Source of the DNA: Thermocatellispora tengchongensis
Lineage (GTDB): Bacteria; Actinomycetota; Actinomycetes; Streptosporangiales; Streptosporangiaceae
Direction: 5' to 3'
DNA length: 64,000 nt
Assembly: GCF_014202315.1 (NCBI RefSeq)
Contig: NZ_JACHGN010000003.1
Coordinates: forward strand, 124,001-188,000
Shown: positions 25,066-35,227 of the stretch, in pieces
Numbering within the stretch: the first letter of the stretch is position 1
How the letters are laid out: each line of letters begins with the position of its first letter
Translations under genes and position numbers: made by a program
Notes under the pieces: model-generated
The model's database searches: none
What the model was told of the DNA's origin: nothing
What the model saw: only the letters and a program-made list of their open reading frames with translations

Positions 25066-25384
25066 CCTCCGCGCGGCCGCGCACCCGTGACGGACACGCC
25101 GGCCCGCCCACATGCCCTCGCGCGGCCGCGCGCAGGTGCTGGGTGTGCCGGCGCGCTCGCGTGGCCGCGCGCGCATGGCGGATAGTGCCGGCCCGCCCCG
25201 TGTGTCCTCGTGCGGCCGCGCGCCTGTGACGGACATGCCGGCCCGCTCGCGTGTCCTCGCGCGGCCGTGTGCGGGTGGTGGGCATGTCGGCCCGCTCGCG
25301 TGTACTTGCGCGGCCGTGCACGCGTGGCGGGTATGTCGGCCTGCCCGTGTGTTCTCGCACGGCCGCGCTGTGCTGTGGGCTGCT
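25066..25384. repeat. 49-bp tandem repeat array, about 6.5 copies
   Basis: Head-to-tail units, each with a CTCGCGCGGCCGCGCG core then TGCCGGCCCGCTCGCGTGT-like sequence. Units 4-6 (25206-25254, 25255-25303, 25304-25352) are exactly 49 bp; unit 1 is about 50 bp, units 2-3 carry an indel near their junction, and the last is partial. Copies differ at several positions and 49 is not a multiple of 3. Each unit contains a near-palindromic GCGCGGCCGCGC. Confidence 0.85.
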
Positions 25385-25635: not shown

Positions 25636-25665
25636 TTGACGGACATCAGATATCTGATCTATTTT
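25636..25665 (+). promoter_or_regulatory. Operon promoter with palindromic operator in its spacer
   Basis: TTGACG (25636-25641), 18-base spacer, TATTTT (25660-25665). The spacer contains the perfect palindrome ATCAGATATCTGAT (25645-25658), placed so that a bound repressor would block RNA polymerase. The AT-rich site stands out from its surroundings. The likely binder is the FadR-type GntR regulator encoded within the operon; this is inferred. Confidence 0.65.
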
Positions 25666-25700
25666 CCCTTCTCAGTGATCCATGACACGGGAGGGCCCTC

Positions 25701-26948
25701 ATGAGATTCGGTGGGCGTTCGTTCCGTCGTGCCGCGGCGCTGCTCGCGGCGGGCGTGCTGGTGGCGGGCTGCGGCGGTGGGGCCGGTGGTGACGCCTCGA
25801 CAGCCGAGGGTGGCAAGACGGTGAGCCTGTGGCACTACTACGGCCCGCCGGACAGTGCGACCGGGGCGGCACTGGTGCGGCTCGTGGAGCGGTACGAGAA
25901 GGAGCACCCTGGCGTCGACATCCAGCCCCGGCACATCCCGTTCGGCGACTTCACCCGCACCCTGCTGCAGTCCGCGGCGGGTGGCGATCTTCCCGACATC
26001 GCCCTGATCAACGCCTTCCACACCGAGGCGATGGTGGAGGCGGGCGTCATCCAGGAACTGGACGACCGGGTCGCGGCCTGGGGCAAGAAGGACGGCTTCT
26101 TCCCGGCGAGCTGGCGGACGACCCAGGTGGGCGGCAAGACGTACGGGCTGCCCCACCTCGCCGACGCGTACGCCGTCTACTACAACACCAAGATGCTCGA
26201 CAAGGCCGGCGTCGAGCCGCCGCGGACGTGGGACGAGATGGCCGAGGCCGCGAAGAAGCTGGCGACCGGCGGGCGGCAGGGGCTGGCGGTGAGCGGCATC
26301 GAGGGCGACGAGGGGGCCACCGGTCTGATCATCCGGATCCTCGCGGCCGGGGGCGACGTGGCCGACGTGGACTCGCCCGAGGCGAACGAGGCGCTGACGC
26401 AGTTCAAGGAGATGGTGGACGACGGCGCCATGTCCAAGGGCATGCTCGGCTGGAACGAGGAGGACGTCAAGAACCAGTTCGCCAACGAGCAGACCGCGAT
26501 GATGATCAACTCGGCCACGTACGTCAGCACGCTGCGCACCGAGAAGCCCGACCTGGAGTGGAAGGTGGCGCTGCTGCCCGAGGACGAGCAGCGGCTGACC
26601 CTGCTCGGGGCCGAGAACCTGACCATCACGGCCGGTAGCCGCGATCCCGACGCCGCCTGGGACGTGATGACGTGGATGCAGCGTCCCGAGGTCCTGGCCG
26701 AGTACCTTCCCGACCGCAACAAGCTGCCGGCCCGCCTCGACGTCCCGGCCGGGCAGGACGAGACGCGGGCGGTCTTCCAGGAGCAGCTCAAGTCGGCCTG
26801 GGTGCCCGAGGGCAAGCTGGCCGGCGCCGCGGGAGAGGTGTTCACCCACATCCAGGGAGCGTTGCAGGCCGCGGTCAGCGGCTCGGCGAGTGTGGCCGAC
26901 GCCTTGACGCAGGCCCAGCAGAAGATCGACAAGGCGCTGGCCGGCTAG
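25701..26948 (+). CDS. Sugar ABC transporter substrate-binding lipoprotein (CUT1)
   Basis: 415-residue extracellular binding protein. A signal peptide (RRAAALLAAGVLVAGC) ends in a lipobox with Cys24, so it should be lipid-anchored outside. Family-1 binding-protein features include WHYYGPP, VERYEKEHPGVDI, PDIALINAFHT and YGLPHLADAYAVYYNTKM. The ligand is probably an oligosaccharide or acidic sugar, judged from neighbours. First gene of the operon, directly after the operator, with GGAGGG before the ATG. The permease genes follow after 1 base. Confidence 0.92.
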   Translation: MRFGGRSFRRAAALLAAGVLVAGCGGGAGGDASTAEGGKTVSLWHYYGPPDSATGAALVRLVERYEKEHPGVDIQPRHIPFGDFTRTLLQSAAGGDLPDIALINAFHTEAMVEAGVIQELDDRVAAWGKKDGFFPASWRTTQVGGKTYGLPHLADAYAVYYNTKMLDKAGVEPPRTWDEMAEAAKKLATGGRQGLAVSGIEGDEGATGLIIRILAAGGDVADVDSPEANEALTQFKEMVDDGAMSKGMLGWNEEDVKNQFANEQTAMMINSATYVSTLRTEKPDLEWKVALLPEDEQRLTLLGAENLTITAGSRDPDAAWDVMTWMQRPEVLAEYLPDRNKLPARLDVPAGQDETRAVFQEQLKSAWVPEGKLAGAAGEVFTHIQGALQAAVSGSASVADALTQAQQKIDKALAG

Positions 26949-26949
26949 C

Positions 26950-27909
26950 GTGCCGAACCAGGAGAAGGCGGTGACGCTGCTGCTCGGCAAGCGCCGCGCC
27001 GTGGTCGCGGGGGTGAGCCCGCGGCCGCGGCGGCGGGTGCCGCTCTCGGCGTACCTGTTCGTGCTGCCCGCGGTGCTCTTCGTCGCGGCGACCGTGCTGT
27101 ACCCGCTGGCGTACAACATCGACCTCAGCTTCCGCGATGTGGGCCTGCGGGAGATCGTGGCCGGCGGCGGCGATTTCGTCGGGCTGCGGAACTACGCCGC
27201 CGAGCTGGGCCGGCCGGAGTTCCGCCACGCGCTCGCCGTCTCGCTGATCTACACCGTGCTCAGCGTCGGGCTGGCCTTCGGCTGCGGCCTGGCCATGGCG
27301 GTCTTCCTCAACCGCCGCTTCCCCGGCCGCAACCTCATGCGCTCGGCCCTGCTGGTGGCGTGGGTGCTGCCCACCGTCGTCAGCGCCAACATCTGGCGCT
27401 GGATGCTCGACGGCACCTACGGGCTGGTCAACACGGCCCTCGGCGGGCTCGGCCTGATCGACCGCGGCGTGTTCTGGCTGGTCGAACCGGTGACGGCGCT
27501 GGCGGCGGTGATCCTGGCCACGGTGTGGACGATGGCGCCGTTCGCGATGATCCTGCTGCTGGCCGGCCTGCAGAACATCCCGGCCACCCTGTACGAGGCC
27601 GCGCGCATCGACGGCGCGGGCGCGCTGCGCCGTTTCACGAGCATCACGATGCCGATGCTGCGCCCGGTGAACATGACGGTCCTGCTGTTGCTGTTCGTCA
27701 CCACGTTCAAGACCTTCGACACGATCTACCTGATGACCCGTGGCGGGCCCGGTGACGCGACCACCATCCTGCCCATCCACGCCTACCTGGAGGCGTTCCA
27801 GTTCTTCAGGTTCGGCACGGGAGCCGCCGCGACCACCGTCATGCTGCTCATCCCGCTGCTGCTGAGCGTGTTCTACTTCCGCGCGCTGAGGAAGGAGGAC
27901 CTGGCATGA
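26950..27909 (+). CDS. Sugar ABC transporter permease, MalF/UgpA type
   Basis: 319-residue inner-membrane subunit with six TM segments after an Arg-rich N-terminus. The binding-protein-dependent transport signature EAARIDGAGALRRFTSITMPML, which contacts the ATPase, is at about 217-238. Starts 1 base after the binding-protein stop; its end overlaps the next permease by 4 bases. Pairs with that permease to form the channel. Confidence 0.92.
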   Translation: MPNQEKAVTLLLGKRRAVVAGVSPRPRRRVPLSAYLFVLPAVLFVAATVLYPLAYNIDLSFRDVGLREIVAGGGDFVGLRNYAAELGRPEFRHALAVSLIYTVLSVGLAFGCGLAMAVFLNRRFPGRNLMRSALLVAWVLPTVVSANIWRWMLDGTYGLVNTALGGLGLIDRGVFWLVEPVTALAAVILATVWTMAPFAMILLLAGLQNIPATLYEAARIDGAGALRRFTSITMPMLRPVNMTVLLLLFVTTFKTFDTIYLMTRGGPGDATTILPIHAYLEAFQFFRFGTGAAATTVMLLIPLLLSVFYFRALRKEDLA

Positions 27910-28733
27910 CCTCCCGCCGCGCCTGGCTGAGCACCGCGATCGGCACGCTGCTGGCCGCGCTGTACGTCGTCCCCGTGTACTGGATGGTGGCGACGTCGCT
28001 GAAGCGTCCCGGCGACATCTTCGCCAGCCCGCCGGACCTGGTGCCCTCACCGGTGTCGTTCGCCGCGTACGCCGACAGCGTTCTGACCCACGCCGGAGTG
28101 CTGCGCGGGCTGGCCAACAGCACCGTGATCGGGCTGGCCACGACCGTGCTCACGCTGGCGCTGGCCATGCCGGCGGCGTACGGGCTGGCGCGCTTCCGGC
28201 TGCGGTTCGTCAACGGCTTCCTGCTGCTGTTCCTCGTGGTACAGATGATTCCGGCGATCAACGTCGCGCTGCCCATGTTCGTCATCCTCAGCCACCTGGA
28301 CCTCGTGAACACCTACACCGGGCTGGTGCTCGCCAACTGCTCGCTGGCCCTGCCCCTCGCCGTGACCGTGCTGCGGCCCTACTTCCTGGCGGTGCCCGGC
28401 GAGGTGGTCGAGGCCGCTCGCGTGGACGGCTGCAACCAGTGGTCGGCCTTCGTACGCATCGCGCTGCCGGTGACGGTGCCGGGCATCGTCACGGTGGCCG
28501 TGGTGAGCTTCCTCGGCGCCTGGGGGGAGTTCGTCTTCGCGCTCGCCCTGACCACCAAGGACGAGATGCAGCCGATCAGCGTCGTCCTCGCCGGGCTGAC
28601 CAACGCGTTCGGCACCCGCTGGAACGACGTCATGGCGGTCTCCGCCGTGGTCGCGCTGCCCATCTTCCTGGCGTTCCTGTTCCTGCAGCGCTTCGTCGTC
28701 GGAGGCTTGACCGCCGGCGCGAGCAAGAGTTGA
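27906..28733 (+). CDS. Sugar ABC transporter permease, MalG/UgpE type
   Basis: 275-residue partner permease with six TM segments. EAA loop: VVEAARVDGCNQWSAFVRIALPV. The ATGA overlap with the upstream permease indicates coupled translation. No ATP-binding subunit follows; CUT1 importers in actinomycetes commonly share the multitask ATPase MsiK encoded elsewhere, and that is presumed here. Confidence 0.92.
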   Translation: MTSRRAWLSTAIGTLLAALYVVPVYWMVATSLKRPGDIFASPPDLVPSPVSFAAYADSVLTHAGVLRGLANSTVIGLATTVLTLALAMPAAYGLARFRLRFVNGFLLLFLVVQMIPAINVALPMFVILSHLDLVNTYTGLVLANCSLALPLAVTVLRPYFLAVPGEVVEAARVDGCNQWSAFVRIALPVTVPGIVTVAVVSFLGAWGEFVFALALTTKDEMQPISVVLAGLTNAFGTRWNDVMAVSAVVALPIFLAFLFLQRFVVGGLTAGASKS

Positions 28734-28757
28734 TTCCCGATCGAGAAGGGCTACTTG

Positions 28758-29690
28758 ATGCACCGTGTTCCCGAAGGCGCCGACCTGGAGATCTGGGCGG
28801 CCGTCACCACGCCGTTCGGCCCGGACGGCGAGCTCCGCCTGGACGCCGTCGGCGACCAGGCGGCGCACCTGCTCGCGGCGGGGGTGAACGGTGCCTTCGT
28901 CGGCGGCACGACAGGGGAGTTCCCCGCGCTGTCCACGGCCGAGCGGCTGGAACTCGCCGCCGCCTGGGCCGAGCGCCGGCCCGCGGCGCTCGGTCTCGGC
29001 GTCCACGTCGGGCACACGGTTCTCAGCGAGGCGCGTACGCTGGCGCGGCAGGCGGCCGGCCTGGGCGCCGACATGATCGCCGCGGTGGCGCCGTACTACG
29101 GCTCCGCCGCGCGGGTGGAGGCGGTCGTGGATCATCTGGCCCGGATCGCGGAGGAGGCGCCGGGCGTGCCCTTCTGCTACTACCACATACCGGGTATGAC
29201 GGGCCTGGACCTGCCGGCCTCCGCGGTGGTGACCGAGGCCGTCAAGCGGATCCCGACGTTCTCGGCGGTCAAGTTCACCGACGACGACCTGCTGGAGTTC
29301 GCCCGGACGAGGGAGGCCGCCCCCGGCGTGCGCGTCTACTTCGGCAAGGACGAGCTTCTCCCGGCGGCCCAGGCCATGGGCGCCCGTGCGGTCATCGGCA
29401 GCCTGTACAACTTTCTCGCCCCGCTGGCGCGGCGTGTCTTCCAGGCCGCGGCGGAGGGGCGCCTGGAGGAGGCGGCGCGGCTGCACCGGCCCTTCCGGGA
29501 GGTGGCCGAGACCGCCGGGCGGCATGGCGGCCTGGCGGTGGTGAAGGAGCTGGCGGGCCGGTTCGGCCCGTATGCCGGACGATGCCGCTCGCCCTGGGAC
29601 ACTTTGGGTACCGAAGGGCTGGCGGCGGTCGATCGCCTCATCCGCGATCTGGGCCCGATCGTGGCGGGGCGGGAAGAGGAGACGCGGTGA
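28758..29690 (+). CDS. N-acetylneuraminate-lyase-like aldolase (DHDPS/NAL superfamily)
   Basis: 310-residue (beta/alpha)8 class I aldolase. The Schiff-base lysine is K172 in AVKFTDDDLLEF and the catalytic Tyr is at 141-142 in CYYHIPGMTG; GGTTGEFPALS is the carboxylate-binding loop. YYHIP..TG and the KFTDxDL segment resemble N-acetylneuraminate lyases more than dihydrodipicolinate synthases (YN.P) or keto-deoxy-gluconate aldolases. Expected reaction: cleavage of a sialic acid or related nonulosonic acid to pyruvate and an aldose. Substrate (Neu5Ac, Kdn, other) is inferred. GAGAAGGG precedes ATG 28758; TTG 28755 is an alternative start. Confidence 0.8.
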   Translation: MHRVPEGADLEIWAAVTTPFGPDGELRLDAVGDQAAHLLAAGVNGAFVGGTTGEFPALSTAERLELAAAWAERRPAALGLGVHVGHTVLSEARTLARQAAGLGADMIAAVAPYYGSAARVEAVVDHLARIAEEAPGVPFCYYHIPGMTGLDLPASAVVTEAVKRIPTFSAVKFTDDDLLEFARTREAAPGVRVYFGKDELLPAAQAMGARAVIGSLYNFLAPLARRVFQAAAEGRLEEAARLHRPFREVAETAGRHGGLAVVKELAGRFGPYAGRCRSPWDTLGTEGLAAVDRLIRDLGPIVAGREEETR

Positions 29691-30412
29691 GCAAGTCACC
29701 GATCTACCGGCAGGCGCAGGCGCGGCTGAAGGAGTACATCCAAACCCACCGGATGCGTCCGGGTGACCGGCTGCCGCCGGAGGCCGCGCTCGCCGAGGAA
29801 CTGGGCGTCAGCAGGCTGTCGCTGCGCGAGGCGACCAGGAGCCTGCAGACGCTGGGGGTCATCGAGGCACGGCACGGCAACGGGCTGTTCGTCTCCTCCT
29901 TCTCCTTCCGGCCGATCATCGAGCAGCTTCCGTACGGTCTGGCCGACACCGGCGCGCGATTCGGCGAGATCCTGGTGGCCCGCGAAGCCATGGAGGTCGG
30001 TCTGATGGCGTTCGCGGCCAAGCTGTCCAGCGGTCCCGAACTGGCCGAGTGCGAGCGGCTGGCCGAGCTGATGGGGGAGCGGGAGGCCGCCGGGCTGCCC
30101 TGCCCGGACCTGGACAAGGAGTTCCACCTCCAGCTCTACCGCGGGCTGGGCAACACGCTGGTCGATCAGGTGATCGAGACCTTCTGGGAGCTGTTCGCCC
30201 GGCTCGGCCCCAACGCCGTGGCGCCGGGCGAGCGGCGTCTCGCCCCCGTCCATCTGGCGATCGTCCGCGCGCTGCGCAAGGGCGACGCCGAGCTCGCGGC
30301 GGCCGAGATGCGCGCCCACTTCGACGACGTACGGGCGCGCACCGCGGCCATCGAGGAGACCGCGCCCTCCGCCGGTGACGACGGAAACCGGGGCGGCGGT
30401 GGACGTACATGA
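29687..30412 (+). CDS. GntR-family regulator, FadR/FCD subfamily
   Basis: 241-residue regulator with an N-terminal winged helix (about 1-72, RPGDRLPPEAALAEELGVSRLSLREATRSLQTLGVIEARHG) and a C-terminal all-helical FCD ligand-binding domain (EFHLQLYRGLGN, HLAIVRALRKGD, HF). FCD proteins usually release DNA on binding a sugar acid or other carboxylate, consistent with sensing a nonulosonic acid or its product. The GTG overlaps the aldolase stop and the stop overlaps the GH36 start, so it is inside the operon it probably represses through the 25645-25658 palindrome. Confidence 0.9.
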   Translation: MSKSPIYRQAQARLKEYIQTHRMRPGDRLPPEAALAEELGVSRLSLREATRSLQTLGVIEARHGNGLFVSSFSFRPIIEQLPYGLADTGARFGEILVAREAMEVGLMAFAAKLSSGPELAECERLAELMGEREAAGLPCPDLDKEFHLQLYRGLGNTLVDQVIETFWELFARLGPNAVAPGERRLAPVHLAIVRALRKGDAELAAAEMRAHFDDVRARTAAIEETAPSAGDDGNRGGGGRT

Positions 30413-32535
30413 CCGAGCCGCTGATCCTGCGCGCCGACGGCACCGCCCTCGTGCTCGACCCCGATGGGCCCGGCCTGCCCCGCGTCCTGCACTGGGGTCC
30501 GGCGCTCGGCCCGCTCGACGGGGTGACGACCGAGGCGCTGGCCGCCGCCTGGCGGCCCGCCCGGCTGGGCTCCTCCCCGCCGCTGCCGCCGGTGCTGTCG
30601 CTGCTGCCGGGCGAGCACGAGGGCTGGCAGGGCCGGCCCGGCGTCGCCGGGCACCGCGACGGCCGGATGCCGCACCTGCGGCTCCTCAGGACGGGCGGGA
30701 TCGAGACGGACCCCGCGGCGGGAAGCGTGCTGATCCGCGCCGAGGACGCCGAGGCGGGCGTCGCGACGGTGACCGAGCTGCGCCTGGAGCCGCAAGGCGT
30801 GGTGCGGCTGCGGCACACCCTGACCAACCTCGGCGAGGAGCCGTGGACGGCGGTCGCCCCGCTGACGCTGCTGCCGGTGCCCGACCACGCCGGTGAGCTG
30901 ATGGACTGGACGGGACGCTGGGGCCGCGAGCGCCATCCCCAGCGCTCGCCGTTCCACCAGGGCATCCGCTCCCTGGAGTCGCGCCGGGGCCGCACCGGGC
31001 ACGGCGCCACCGGCCTGCTGGTCGCGGGCACGCCCGGTTTCGGATTCCGGCACGGGGAGGTGTGGGCGGTCCACCTCGCCTGGAGCGGCAACCACCAGCA
31101 CTACGCCGAACGGCTCGCCGAGGGCTGGTCGGTGATCGGCGCCGGCGAACTGCTCGCGCCCGGTGAGGTGCGGCTGGCCCCGGGCGAGAGCTACGAGTCT
31201 CCGTGGGCCTTCTTCGTCTACTCCGAGCACGGCCTGGACGGCGCGAGCGCCCGGCTGCACCGCTGGCTGCGCGCCCGTCCCGGCCACCCCCGCTCACCCC
31301 GCCCGGTGGTGCTCAACACCTGGGAGGCCGTCTACTTCGACCAGCGGCCCGACCATCTGCTCTCGCTGGCCGAGCGGGCCGCGCACATCGGGGTGGAGCG
31401 GTTCGTCCTGGACGACGGCTGGTTCCGGGGCCGCCGCGACGACTCCGCCGGTCTGGGCGACTGGTACGTCGCCGAGGACGTGTGGCCCAAGGGCCTGCAC
31501 CCGCTGGCCGACCGCGTACGCGAACTGGGCATGCAGTTCGGGCTCTGGGTCGAGCCCGAGATGGTGAACCTCGACTCCGACCTGGCCCGCGCACACCCCG
31601 AATGGCTGCTCGCCGCCCCCGGCCGGACCCCGCGTGAGTGGCGGCGCCAGCACACGCTCGACCTGGCCGTCCCCGAGGCCTTCGCCCACATCCTCGACCG
31701 GTTGGACGCGCTGGTCACCGAGTACCGCATCGACTACCTGAAGTGGGATCACAACCGCGACCTGCTGGAGGCGGTCCACGACGGCGGCGCGGGGGTCCGC
31801 GAGCAGACACTGGCGGTATACCGCCTGCTCGACCGGCTCCGCGAACGGCATCCGCGCCTGGAGATCGAGTCGTGCTCCTCCGGCGGCGCGCGCATCGATC
31901 TGGGGATACTCGCCCGCTCCGACCGGGTGTGGGCCTCCGACACCAACGACCCGCTGGACCGCCAGGACATCCAACGGTGGCTTTCGGTCCTGGTGCCGCC
32001 CGAGCTCATCGGCTCGCATGTCGGGCCGCCGGTCGCGCACGTCACCGGTCGCGCCGCCGGCCTTCCGTTCCGGGCGGCCACCGCGCTGTTCTGCCACGCG
32101 GGCCTGGAATGGGACCTCACCACCTGCGACCCCGCCGAACTCGACTACCTGCGCCTGTGGCTCGCCGAGTACAAGCGGCTGCGCCCGCTGCTGCACACCG
32201 GGGAGGTCGTCAGAATCGATCCCGGGCACCGGCCGGAACTCCTGGTGCACGGGGTGGTCGCGGCCGACCGCTCCCACGCCCTGTTCGCCGGCGTCACCAC
32301 CGCCACGTCCCCGTACGTCGCCCCGCCGCGGCTGCGCCTGGCCGGGCTCGACGAGCACGCCGTCTACGACGTCACCCCCCTGACCCGCCTGACCGCCCCC
32401 GACCGCCGCTTCCGGCAGCCCTCCTGGGCGGACGGCGGCACCACGCTGCCCGGAGCGCTGCTGATGCGCGCGGGGCTCGCCGCGCCGCTGCTGAACCCCT
32501 CCCAGGCGATGCTCGTCGAACTGCGCGCCCGCTGA
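30409..32535 (+). CDS. GH36 alpha-galactosidase
   Basis: 708-residue retaining glycoside hydrolase. An N-terminal beta-supersandwich (1-300) precedes the TIM barrel; nucleophile D447 is in YLKWDHNRD and acid/base D511 in WASDTNDPLDRQDIQRW; ERFVLDDGWFRGRRDD and CSSGGARIDLGIL are family motifs. It hydrolyses terminal alpha-1,6- or other alpha-galactosides. There is no signal peptide, so it should act in the cytoplasm on imported oligosaccharide. ATGA overlap with the regulator gene. Confidence 0.94.
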   Translation: MTEPLILRADGTALVLDPDGPGLPRVLHWGPALGPLDGVTTEALAAAWRPARLGSSPPLPPVLSLLPGEHEGWQGRPGVAGHRDGRMPHLRLLRTGGIETDPAAGSVLIRAEDAEAGVATVTELRLEPQGVVRLRHTLTNLGEEPWTAVAPLTLLPVPDHAGELMDWTGRWGRERHPQRSPFHQGIRSLESRRGRTGHGATGLLVAGTPGFGFRHGEVWAVHLAWSGNHQHYAERLAEGWSVIGAGELLAPGEVRLAPGESYESPWAFFVYSEHGLDGASARLHRWLRARPGHPRSPRPVVLNTWEAVYFDQRPDHLLSLAERAAHIGVERFVLDDGWFRGRRDDSAGLGDWYVAEDVWPKGLHPLADRVRELGMQFGLWVEPEMVNLDSDLARAHPEWLLAAPGRTPREWRRQHTLDLAVPEAFAHILDRLDALVTEYRIDYLKWDHNRDLLEAVHDGGAGVREQTLAVYRLLDRLRERHPRLEIESCSSGGARIDLGILARSDRVWASDTNDPLDRQDIQRWLSVLVPPELIGSHVGPPVAHVTGRAAGLPFRAATALFCHAGLEWDLTTCDPAELDYLRLWLAEYKRLRPLLHTGEVVRIDPGHRPELLVHGVVAADRSHALFAGVTTATSPYVAPPRLRLAGLDEHAVYDVTPLTRLTAPDRRFRQPSWADGGTTLPGALLMRAGLAAPLLNPSQAMLVELRAR

Positions 32536-32585
32536 GCGGCCCGCACGCCTCCCCTTCACCACGCACCACCATGTAAGGAGCCGTC

Positions 32586-34430
32586 ATGACCCATGCCTCG
32601 ATTCCCCCGATGTCGAGGAGAAGGCTGCTGGGATACGCCGGCGCCGGAGCCACCGGCGCGTACCTTCTCGGCGCGGTGCCCGCCCCCGCGCACGCCGACA
32701 CCGGCCAGGCGGAGACGGCACGGACGGGCACCGCCCTCCAGGTGGCCAGCGCCGCCGCCGTCGCCGGGCAGCACGTGCCCGCCAAGCACACGGCGCTGCG
32801 CACCGACGGGTACGCCGAGCCGGGCGACGGAGGCGGCGCGCTTTACCGGCGGCTGCCCGCCGCGCCCGCCACGCCGGACCGGTGGCATCTGAAGTCGGCC
32901 GACGGCGCCTGGTGGGAGATCGCCGACGACGTGGTGTCGGTGCGGGCGCTGGGCGCCAAGGGCGACTACGACGAGGAGAGCGGCACCGGCTCCGATGACA
33001 CCGAGGCGCTGCTCGCGGCCGCCCGACTGAACCGGGTCATCTACGTGCCGGGCACCGACAAGACCTACCGGTGCACCCAGCAGATCACCCTGCTGAACGA
33101 CGGAACGACCTGGTACGGCGACGGCTACCGTTCGAAGATCACCCTGTTCTCCGTCGCGAGCGGGGCCGGCGCCCTGATCGGCATCCGGGGCGACGCGCCC
33201 ACCACGGCCGACGGCCCGCCGGCGCGCACGGTTCGCGGCGTACGGGTCTCGGGACTGCACCTGGACACTCGCGACAGCAAGAACAACAACGGCCTCGGCG
33301 GCTCCTTCCTGGCCGATGTCCAGGTCGACGACATGTACTTCTCCCGCATCGGCCGCAAGGCGCTGACGTTCCAGTACCACTGCCGCAACGTGCGATGCCG
33401 GGACATCACGATCTACAGCACGGCGACGGAGCCCGGCTCGACGTTCTCGGCGATCAGCGTGGAGGGCCAGACGGCGGGAGTGGACCTCAGCTACTACCCC
33501 GGCGGCGTCAAGAGCACCGCCGACCTGCAGGGCGCCGACATGGCCGATATCCGCTTCACCCGGGTGCACTGCGCCGCCACCGGCTATAACGGCATCGTGG
33601 TGTCCAACGCGTACCGGGTCTCCTTCGACGACATCGACTTCGGTGACACCTCCGGGGCCGGCTCCTTCGTGATCTTCACCCGGCTGGTGCGCGACAGCCA
33701 TGTGCGCGGCATTCGCGGCGGCGACACCCGGCGTCGCATGATCTTCTTCGACGCCAACGTGCGGAACTGCTCGGTGCGCGACTTCCACTTCGGCGCCACG
33801 CTGGGGACCGGCGGTGACGGCCGGGCCATTCACTGCGCCGGGCCGTCGAACCTGTTCGCCGACGGCTCGTTCGCGCACCGCAACGCCGCGACGCAGGAGG
33901 CCGTCCTCGTCACCGGCGCCGCCGTCACCCTGCGCGGGCTGGAGGTGCGCGAGTGCGCGTCCGCGTTCGTGCTCAACGGCCCGCCGGCGGCCGAGGGACT
34001 GACCCTCACCGACTCGCGCTTCACCACCGCGGGCGCTGCGGCCTTCCGGGTGAAGGGCCCCAGGACCGTCATCCGCGACAACCGGTTCGACGTGGCCGGC
34101 GCGCCCTTCGCCGGACGCTTCGAAGGGCCGGACAACCAGTGCGTCGGCAACACCGTGGCCGGCACCGGTGACCGGCGCCTGATCGTCACCGCAGGCGCTT
34201 CCGCGCTGATCGCCCTGAACACCTTCGGCCAGGGCTCGAAGATCAGCTTCGAGGGCGGCACGCTGTACGCCGGTGCCTGCTTCGGCAACACCGGCCTGGA
34301 CGGCATCGCGCCCAACCACCTGCCCATGGGCGGCGGAGCGCTGCACGTGGACGGCTCCGGCCGGCTGCGCGTCAAGACCGGCCCGTTCACCTCCGATACC
34401 GACGGGGTCGTGGTCGGCAGCCAGACCTGA
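32586..34430 (+). CDS. Tat-exported right-handed beta-helix protein (pectate-lyase/tailspike-like)
   Basis: 614 residues. N-terminal signal with SRRRLLGYAGAGATGAYLLG and an AHA cleavage site, a likely Tat signal. The mature part starts with a segment like pectate-lyase-superfamily N-termini (VSVRALGAKGDYDEESGTGSDDTEALLAAA) then parallel beta-helix coils (VRGVRVSGLHLDTRD, VRCRDITIYS, VSFDDIDFGD, LRGLEVRECAS). This fold occurs in polysaccharide lyases, glycosidases and phage tailspikes. Catalytic residues are not identified. As the only secreted enzyme of the operon it is the natural candidate for depolymerising the glycan outside. AAGGAG lies 7 bases before the ATG. Confidence 0.8.
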   Translation: MTHASIPPMSRRRLLGYAGAGATGAYLLGAVPAPAHADTGQAETARTGTALQVASAAAVAGQHVPAKHTALRTDGYAEPGDGGGALYRRLPAAPATPDRWHLKSADGAWWEIADDVVSVRALGAKGDYDEESGTGSDDTEALLAAARLNRVIYVPGTDKTYRCTQQITLLNDGTTWYGDGYRSKITLFSVASGAGALIGIRGDAPTTADGPPARTVRGVRVSGLHLDTRDSKNNNGLGGSFLADVQVDDMYFSRIGRKALTFQYHCRNVRCRDITIYSTATEPGSTFSAISVEGQTAGVDLSYYPGGVKSTADLQGADMADIRFTRVHCAATGYNGIVVSNAYRVSFDDIDFGDTSGAGSFVIFTRLVRDSHVRGIRGGDTRRRMIFFDANVRNCSVRDFHFGATLGTGGDGRAIHCAGPSNLFADGSFAHRNAATQEAVLVTGAAVTLRGLEVRECASAFVLNGPPAAEGLTLTDSRFTTAGAAAFRVKGPRTVIRDNRFDVAGAPFAGRFEGPDNQCVGNTVAGTGDRRLIVTAGASALIALNTFGQGSKISFEGGTLYAGACFGNTGLDGIAPNHLPMGGGALHVDGSGRLRVKTGPFTSDTDGVVVGSQT

Positions 34431-34446
34431 CCACCCCGCTCACCTG

Positions 34447-34474
34447 CCCCGCCGCGGACGGCTCCGCGGCGGGG
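34447..34474. terminator. Strong GC hairpin ending the carbohydrate operon
   Basis: CCCCGCCGCGGA, loop CGGC, TCCGCGGCGGGG: a perfect 12-bp stem 16 bases after the beta-helix gene stop and between convergent genes. No U-tract, as usual in actinomycetes; it may serve both strands. Confidence 0.7.
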
Positions 34475-34513
34475 CGCCGGCAGCGCGCCCCGCAGAAGAA
34501 GGGCTCCTTCGCG

Positions 34514-35227
34514 TCATCGCTTGAGGCCGCGGCTGGTGTCCAGGGCGAGGAGGGTGAGCCAGGCCCAGCCGATGGTGACGGCGGTGCGCTGGAAGAGGCC
34601 GCCCAGGGCGACCAGGTCGGGGTGCTGCTGGAAACCCATGGTGGACAGGACGAACGTGGTCACGAAGGCCGCGGCGGCGAGCACCGAGAAGACGGCCCAG
34701 GCGGGGCGGCGGTGGGCGGCGAAGCGGACGGCGAGGACCACGGGGGCGGCGGCGATGGCGGCGAAGCCGGGGACGGAGAACGCGTCGTGCAGGAAGGCCG
34801 GGACGCCGCTGTAGTGCACCAAGAGGCCGGGGGTGCCCGGCGGGTAGCCGCTGACGGGGTCGGTGGTGAAGACGCCGGCGCCGAGCAGGCTGATCGCCCA
34901 GATTCCGATCAGGAGTGGGCCCCAGACGGAGCCGCGGGCCGGGCCGGGGGCGGTGCGGAGGGCGCGGCGCAGGCCGATGGCCAGGGCCAGCGTGAGCACG
35001 CCGGCGACGAGGAAGTTGGCGGTCTGCACCCAGCCGTGCTCGCCCAGGGCCAGCGAGCTGACGGGGTGGCGCAGGGGGTCGTAGTGGGGGCGGATGGCGC
35101 CGGCGACGAGGAATGTGGCCACGAAGAGCGGGCCGGCCACGGCGCCGGCGATGAGCAGGCGTCTGGTCCCGTTCGGGTGGTTGCGAGGGGCGGCCGGGGG
35201 AGTGGTCGCGAGCAGAGTCCGAGTCAT
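34514..35227 (-). CDS. DUF998 family membrane protein
   Basis: 237-residue protein with six TM segments. Features of the DUF998 family are LLIAGAVAGPLFVATFLVAGAIRPHYDPLRHPVSSLALG and GLLVHYSGVPAFLHD. Function unknown; the family is frequent in actinomycetes beside transcription regulators. ATG 35227 is nearly at the predicted transcription start. The promoter is covered by two 16-bp palindromes, so expression should be tightly controlled. Confidence 0.85.
   Translation of the reverse strand: MTRTLLATTPPAAPRNHPNGTRRLLIAGAVAGPLFVATFLVAGAIRPHYDPLRHPVSSLALGEHGWVQTANFLVAGVLTLALAIGLRRALRTAPGPARGSVWGPLLIGIWAISLLGAGVFTTDPVSGYPPGTPGLLVHYSGVPAFLHDAFSVPGFAAIAAAPVVLAVRFAAHRRPAWAVFSVLAAAAFVTTFVLSTMGFQQHPDLVALGGLFQRTAVTIGWAWLTLLALDTSRGLKR

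Follow-up and report, generated by a model that had tools for sequence, protein, structure and literature searches.

The canonical nan cluster, the described system closest to the locus analysed here, is defined by nanA, nanK and nanE (Li and Huang 2022, PMC8754123), and by this definition none of 13 Jiangellales species possesses one (PMC8754123). The lyase of E. coli, NanA, accepts both N-acetylneuraminic acid (Neu5Ac) and 2-keto-3-deoxynononic acid (Kdn) (PMC8141875), while Sphingobacterium sp. has an aldolase specific for Kdn (Nakagawa et al. 2022, cited in PMC10017367). In Streptomyces, Kdn teichulosonic acids rank among the major wall polymers, and other actinobacteria have them too (PMC11481543, PMC7831098, PMC6801904); Streptomyces walls hold a galactose (Gal)-Kdn form (PMC11481543, PMC7831098), and alpha-hexose-(1->4)-Kdn is reported for Promicromonospora (PMC6801904). 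In the literature we found, no breakdown route for these polymers is described. Here we examine a 64,000-nt stretch (‘the window’) of contig NZ_JACHGN010000003.1, part of the 11.65-Mb assembly of Thermocatellispora tengchongensis, whose family also includes Spongiactinospora and Streptosporangium. Open reading frame (ORF) calls and domain searches place seven plus-strand genes behind one promoter at 25701-34430 (Table 1). We read this operon as a GntR-controlled unit of nonulosonic-acid catabolism, most likely acting on Kdn from Gal-containing teichulosonic acids of actinobacterial walls, whether those of the cell itself or of a neighbour—a reading to which we give about an even chance.

The aldolase and its conserved operon

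The product of the fourth gene belongs to the DHDPS/NAL fold family (PF00701, 154.5 bits); its top PDB matches are N-acetylneuraminate lyases (NAL), and its Lys172 aligns with the Schiff-base lysine of E. coli NanA, Lys165. Its best curated matches are NanA models, all of them below cut-off, for which reason we file the protein as ‘NAL-type’ and not as a NanA equivalog. In a 90-row maximum-likelihood tree, for which the reference enzymes are few, all from E. coli and in part on long branches, the window aldolase groups with NanA (100/99), separate from YagE, YjhH and DapA. Residues T48, K165, T167, D191, E192 and S208 of NanA correspond to T52, K172, T174, D198, E199 and S215, and the NanA-type residues contacting the glycerol side chain of Neu5Ac/Kdn are retained; YagE, YjhH and DapA carry other residues at the positions of E192 and S208. 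A sialidase gene lies alongside an aldolase-family gene in 18 of the 90 loci, with NanM in several. Tree, active-site residues and genomic context together make this a well-supported prediction of nonulosonate (NanA-type) lyase activity, and on the first two we reject the reading as a 2-keto-3-deoxygluconate (KDG) aldolase. An earlier, sequence-only reading of this DNA had named phylogeny among NAL, KDG aldolases and DHDPS as its own check, with a grouping among KDG aldolases as the outcome that would overturn it; the protein falls with NanA, and the motifs it had pointed to are present (YYHIP at residue 141, KFTDDD at 172).

At its threshold TIGR00683, the model of canonical NanA, matched nothing across the class. 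More distant aldolase relatives within the window's own family occur in a cluster of a related genus (L014-L020), together with a NanR-like GntR, an Opp-type ATP-binding cassette (ABC) transporter, a sulfatase and sialidases; in this subgroup D191/E192 are replaced by A/G and K, and the cluster possibly serves a modified or sulfated sialic acid.

An earlier genome scan with the single aldolase sequence gave no match; with an alignment as query, a scan of approximately 85,000 genomes recovered close relatives (55-72%) in Spongiactinospora, Jiangella, Haloactinopolyspora, Kribbella, Glaciibacter, Microbacterium and Pseudonocardia. The order binding protein-permease-permease-aldolase is kept, at 51-82% identity, in all of these genera except Microbacterium (binding-protein orthologues in other loci being 51-70% identical). 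A GH36 gene follows the aldolase in six Jiangella loci (60-62% identity), and the orthologous operon of Kribbella sp. ALI-6-A runs from binding protein, two permeases and aldolase to GntR, a secreted sialidase (PF13088) and NanM (PF24996). The gene set is not a chance assembly, since the transporter-aldolase block, the GH36 (in Jiangella), the regulator and the operator recur in other genomes.

Turning to the architecture of the operon, consecutive genes are separated by 1, -4, 24, -4, -4 and 50 bp. Two sigma-70-like sites were found in 11.5 kb, where 0.2 would be expected, and the promoter is one of them. The seven-gene list and single promoter of the sequence-only reading are thereby borne out by ORFs, Pfam and promoter scan alike. 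The CUT1 importer set is complete in its binding lipoprotein (SBP_bac_1) and two permeases (both BPD_transp_1), an ATPase gene being absent from the set by Pfam. At the 3' end a hairpin may close the operon; the next gene (34514-35227) is convergent. Upstream, between the end of a DNA polymerase III alpha-like gene and the promoter, the window holds GC-rich tandem units of approximately 49 bp with internal palindromes (25070-25368).

Table 1. Features of the operon and its flanks (window coordinates)
Feature	Position	Strand	Details
Promoter	25636..25665	+	-35 TTGACG, -10 TATTTT, spacer 18 bp
Candidate operator ATCAGATATCTGAT	25645..25658	.	perfect palindrome, in promoter spacer
CUT1 sugar-binding lipoprotein	25701..26948	+	lipobox VAGC; SBP_bac_1
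CUT1 permease A	26950..27909	+	BPD_transp_1
CUT1 permease B	27906..28733	+	BPD_transp_1
N-acetylneuraminate-lyase-type aldolase, DHDPS/NAL superfamily	28758..29690	+	Schiff-base Lys172, T174, D198, E199, S215
FCD-type GntR regulator	29687..30412	+	GntR and FCD domains
Cytoplasmic GH36 alpha-galactosidase-type enzyme	30409..32535	+	Melibiase with GH36 N and C domains
Tat-exported right-handed beta-helix protein, putative depolymerase	32586..34430	+	homology to phage tail spikes/fibres
14-bp hairpin, possible terminator	34445..34476	+	no U-tract; z = -1.5, weak

The fifth gene encodes a regulator with both GntR and FCD domains, and a 14-bp perfect palindrome sits at the promoter of this same operon; its exact sequence occurs nowhere else in the 11.65-Mb genome (near-matches elsewhere look incidental on inspection). 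A core, TCAGATATCTGA, is common to the window, Kribbella and Glaciibacter sites; its counterpart is TTAGATATCTAA in Pseudonocardia and GGGATATCTGAC in Jiangella, where the site is GATATC-centred as in the other genera, the Spongiactinospora version being degenerate. The arrangement of TTGAC(A/G) and operator is kept 5' of the orthologous binding-protein gene in Spongiactinospora, Jiangella, Haloactinopolyspora, Kribbella and Pseudonocardia; in Glaciibacter the operator is present and the -35 less clear. Kribbella, Glaciibacter and Pseudonocardia, each with its version of the operator, also carry a GntR orthologue (57-63% identity) within the same operon. On the strength of this position and conservation we read the palindrome as the candidate operator of the operon's GntR, at which the regulator would act as a repressor. 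In Jiangella, a search for an operator common to the beta-helix gene and the aldolase operon found none. The Pseudonocardia operons have, after the GntR gene, a second, divergent DHDPS-family gene (L036:11645-12232, L037:11633-12220, L038:11617-12204).

The beta-helix protein and phage tail spikes

The last product of the operon bears a twin-arginine sequence, SRRRLLG, of the twin-arginine translocation (Tat) pathway. Over residues 122-614 (80% of its length) it shares 28% identity with a protein from the tail region of Sinorhizobium phage ort11, and the two have a common core at approximately residues 225-265 that includes N233, N235, R257, K258, Q263, Y264 and H265; its N-terminal cap is 28-46% identical to phage tail spikes/fibres and its last 38 residues show 63% identity with tail proteins from Pectobacterium and Klebsiella phages. 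Searched as a family, these sequences reach PF13229 (best E 2.3e-6) and PF12708 (6.5e-5), the window protein alone staying sub-threshold. The single protein found no match in Pfam or NCBIfam, none in the PDB with phmmer and none in a scan of viral contigs; AlphaFold models made without an alignment reached a mean confidence (pLDDT) of 44 and 47, and Foldseek returned no significant fold match for single-sequence models of that quality. Judged by its homology the protein is related to phage tail proteins, and we propose with moderate confidence that it is a recruited tail-spike depolymerase, its activity putative.

The main rival to a recruited depolymerase is that the gene is a passenger, either a leftover phage tail gene or an unrelated secreted protein; this would be compatible with our reading of the other six genes, and we consider it possible, though less likely than not. 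It would account for the absence of the gene from most operon carriers and for fragments of it in two related genomes. The Jiangella homologues (60-62%) lie, when on the same contig, 15-24 kb from the operon GH36, and the window copy itself follows a 50-bp gap. Set against this, full-length copies occur, among 343 genomes of the family and 395 of the class, only where the aldolase-GH36 operon is present (the window organism and Jiangella), the window copy retains a Tat signal and an intact frame, and it lies on the same strand, 3' of the GH36 gene, with no promoter-like site found between the two. One related genome has a degraded homologue with a short DHDPS-family-like ORF as its neighbour (L115:10000-11880).

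The acid, the galactose and a proposed pathway

Neither NanE (N-acetylmannosamine (ManNAc)-6-phosphate epimerase, PF04131) nor a N-acetylglucosamine/ManNAc 2-epimerase (PF07221) was found in the T. tengchongensis genome, and neither family was found in Kribbella sp. ALI-6-A, Microbacterium MAH-37 or S. gelatinilytica. In a genome with neither epimerase family Neu5Ac would dead-end at ManNAc; it is this absence that favours Kdn over Neu5Ac, and Kdn is most likely the substrate.

The genome's own biosynthetic genes bear on the same question. A 686-residue fusion joins a CMP-sugar (cytidine monophosphate-sugar) cytidylyltransferase, a KdsC/Kdn-9-P-phosphatase-like HAD domain and NeuB (G000:C3:506973-507680 region; L164:9420-11477, minus strand); a nonulosonate-9-phosphate phosphatase fused to NeuB is predicted to point to a Kdn route. 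Large NeuB ORFs in related genomes suggest that the fusion is common in the family, and a DUF6716 putative glycosyltransferase lies near the T. tengchongensis copy. A second NeuB, placed above the curated cut-off as the pseudaminic acid synthase PseI, is found amid glycosyltransferase-like genes (G000:C29:30319-31041; L165:9331-10758); T. tengchongensis probably makes two nonulosonic acids.

That Neu5Ac (or a derivative) is instead scavenged from host or environmental sialoglycans, giving pyruvate and a ManNAc that is used by another route or excreted, we think unlikely. Sialidases and NanM adjoin the relatives of the operon, NanE is present in several Jiangella genomes and in Haloactinopolyspora, and the breadth of E. 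coli NanA (PMC8141875) would allow either acid; on the other side stand the missing epimerases, the lack of nanK or nanE in any conserved operon seen and a window operon without a sialidase. The genome does carry, far from the operon, a separate gene for a sialidase-like protein with a FRIP motif and no obvious signal peptide (G000:C1:318215-319117; L113:9614-10726, minus strand), which also speaks for Neu5Ac; its product could also be the cytoplasmic sialidase/Kdnase of the proposed pathway.

Another nonulosonic or ulosonic acid, e.g. legionaminic acid or a sugar of the 3-deoxyoctulosonic acid (Kdo) type, could be handled by the same architecture. This we judge quite unlikely, even though no ManNAc epimerase would be needed, the genome holds a PseI over its curated cut-off, and the phage that encodes a homologue of the beta-helix protein has as its host Sinorhizobium, the K-antigens of which contain 3-deoxy-2-ulosonic acids: the aldolase retains the NanA-type side-chain contacts, and the configuration of pseudaminic acid does not suit NAL.

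The GH36 enzyme has N-terminal (PF16875), catalytic (PF02065) and C-terminal (PF16874) domains, and its nucleophile and acid/base motifs, KWDHNR at 445 and WASDTND at 508, align with those of Geobacillus AgaB; enzymes related to GH36 can also have other specificities. A clade (100/98) unites the window and Jiangella operon enzymes, apart from the other GH36s of their own and related genomes, and a second GH36 of T. tengchongensis (C18) adjoins CUT1 genes in an ordinary-looking alpha-galactoside locus. With a clade of its own, and another GH36 at a separate CUT1 locus, the operon enzyme looks to be a dedicated, co-inherited partner and not the genome's ordinary alpha-galactosidase. An ordinary plant-galactoside/sugar-acid operon, in which GH36 would act on sugars of the raffinose type and the aldolase would cleave KDG-like acids, is highly unlikely: such operons commonly have GH36 and CUT1 importers, and FCD regulators often sense sugar acids (model matches of this one include UxuR and ExuR), but the aldolase lies outside the KDG/pentonate groups, the genome has that other GH36 beside its own CUT1 genes, and among the sequences compared the operon GH36 clade is common only to aldolase operons.

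Returning to Kdn as the favoured substrate, the operon would work as follows. Without inducer, the FCD regulator would sit on the candidate operator and shut the promoter. Outside the cell, the polymer would be bound or cut by the Tat-exported beta-helix protein, and the resulting mono- or oligosaccharides would enter through the CUT1 importer, its ATPase presumably encoded elsewhere. In the cytoplasm the GH36, of a family that its domains establish, would take off an alpha-galactosyl unit, and the aldolase, with its NAL-type active site, would split the freed acid by Schiff-base retro-aldol cleavage into pyruvate and a hexose; if that acid is Kdn, the hexose would be mannose, and NanK and NanE would not be needed. 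This alpha-Gal-nonulosonate scheme is plausible but unproven.

Several observations weigh against it. The aldolase scores 139.5 bits against a cut-off of 281 (PRK04147) and 119 against 382 (TIGR00683), and every part of the NeuB fusion falls under its equivalog cut-off (the phosphatase at 86.5 against 180). There is no strong NeuB in Jiangella, so self-recycling cannot be the general role of the operon. The window operon itself has no sialidase gene, and the literature examined did not give the anomer of Gal for the Gal-Kdn polymer of Streptomyces. No beta-helix gene was found in J. muralis, in J. asiatica or in any of the carriers tested outside Jiangella, and in Spongiactinospora, home of the closest aldolase relatives, the operon keeps transporter and aldolase and is missing both GH36 and beta-helix genes. 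Galactose would, on this last count, be an accessory that the substrate does not always carry. The sequence-only reading, which had proposed a Gal-nonulosonate polymer, holds in part: for its NAL-type aldolase (in tree, residues and context) and for its GH36, which looks dedicated. Kdn is now favoured over Neu5Ac, and the beta-helix protein is placed as a relative of phage tail spikes; the alpha-Gal-nonulosonate linkage, the depolymerase activity and the uptake of oligomers stand as proposals.

More tentative still is the idea of a dedicated, unrecognised actinobacterial pathway for the degradation of Kdn (teichulosonic acids) without ManNAc enzymes, for which a phage tail-spike depolymerase, given a Tat signal, would have been recruited in two lineages to open Gal-Kdn polymers.

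Comparison with described systems

Should the beta-helix protein be an active depolymerase, it would represent a tail-spike enzyme converted into a catabolic exoenzyme of bacteria, and could serve to open the walls of actinobacteria. With the tail spikes/fibres of Sinorhizobium phage ort11 and of the N4-kind Pectobacterium and Klebsiella phages it has in common the beta-helix body, N-terminal cap and 38-residue C-terminal tail; it differs in its N-terminal Tat signal and in its place within a catabolic operon, not beside phage genes. Actinobacterial GH36 alpha-galactoside operons also pair GH36 with a CUT1 importer, but in the window operon the GH36 belongs to a separate clade and is joined by an aldolase and an FCD regulator. 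The Sphingobacterium Kdn aldolase (Nakagawa et al. 2022, cited in PMC10017367), compared here by description only, resembles the window enzyme in proposed reaction and substrate; an operon with GH36 or a tail-spike homologue is not described in the text examined. For the breakdown of teichulosonic acids, the operon offers named genes, a regulator and an operator for testing.

Closest of all is the canonical nan cluster (Li and Huang 2022, PMC8754123), with which the window operon has in common a NanA-type lyase, a dedicated importer and a NanR-like GntR/FCD regulator, its related operons also carrying sialidase and NanM. It differs in having neither nanK nor nanE and in the addition of GH36 and the tail-spike homologue. 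Canonical clusters have nanK and nanE within 10 ORFs of nanA; here there is no kinase in the operon and no NanE in the genome. Jiangella nonetheless has the aldolase operon, an example of a conserved set that surveys based on nanA/K/E overlook (PMC8754123). The earlier statement that no described system has this set is in keeping with that definition: the operon would work like a sialic-acid cluster whose downstream half differs and to which two proteins have been added, and falls outside nanA/K/E.

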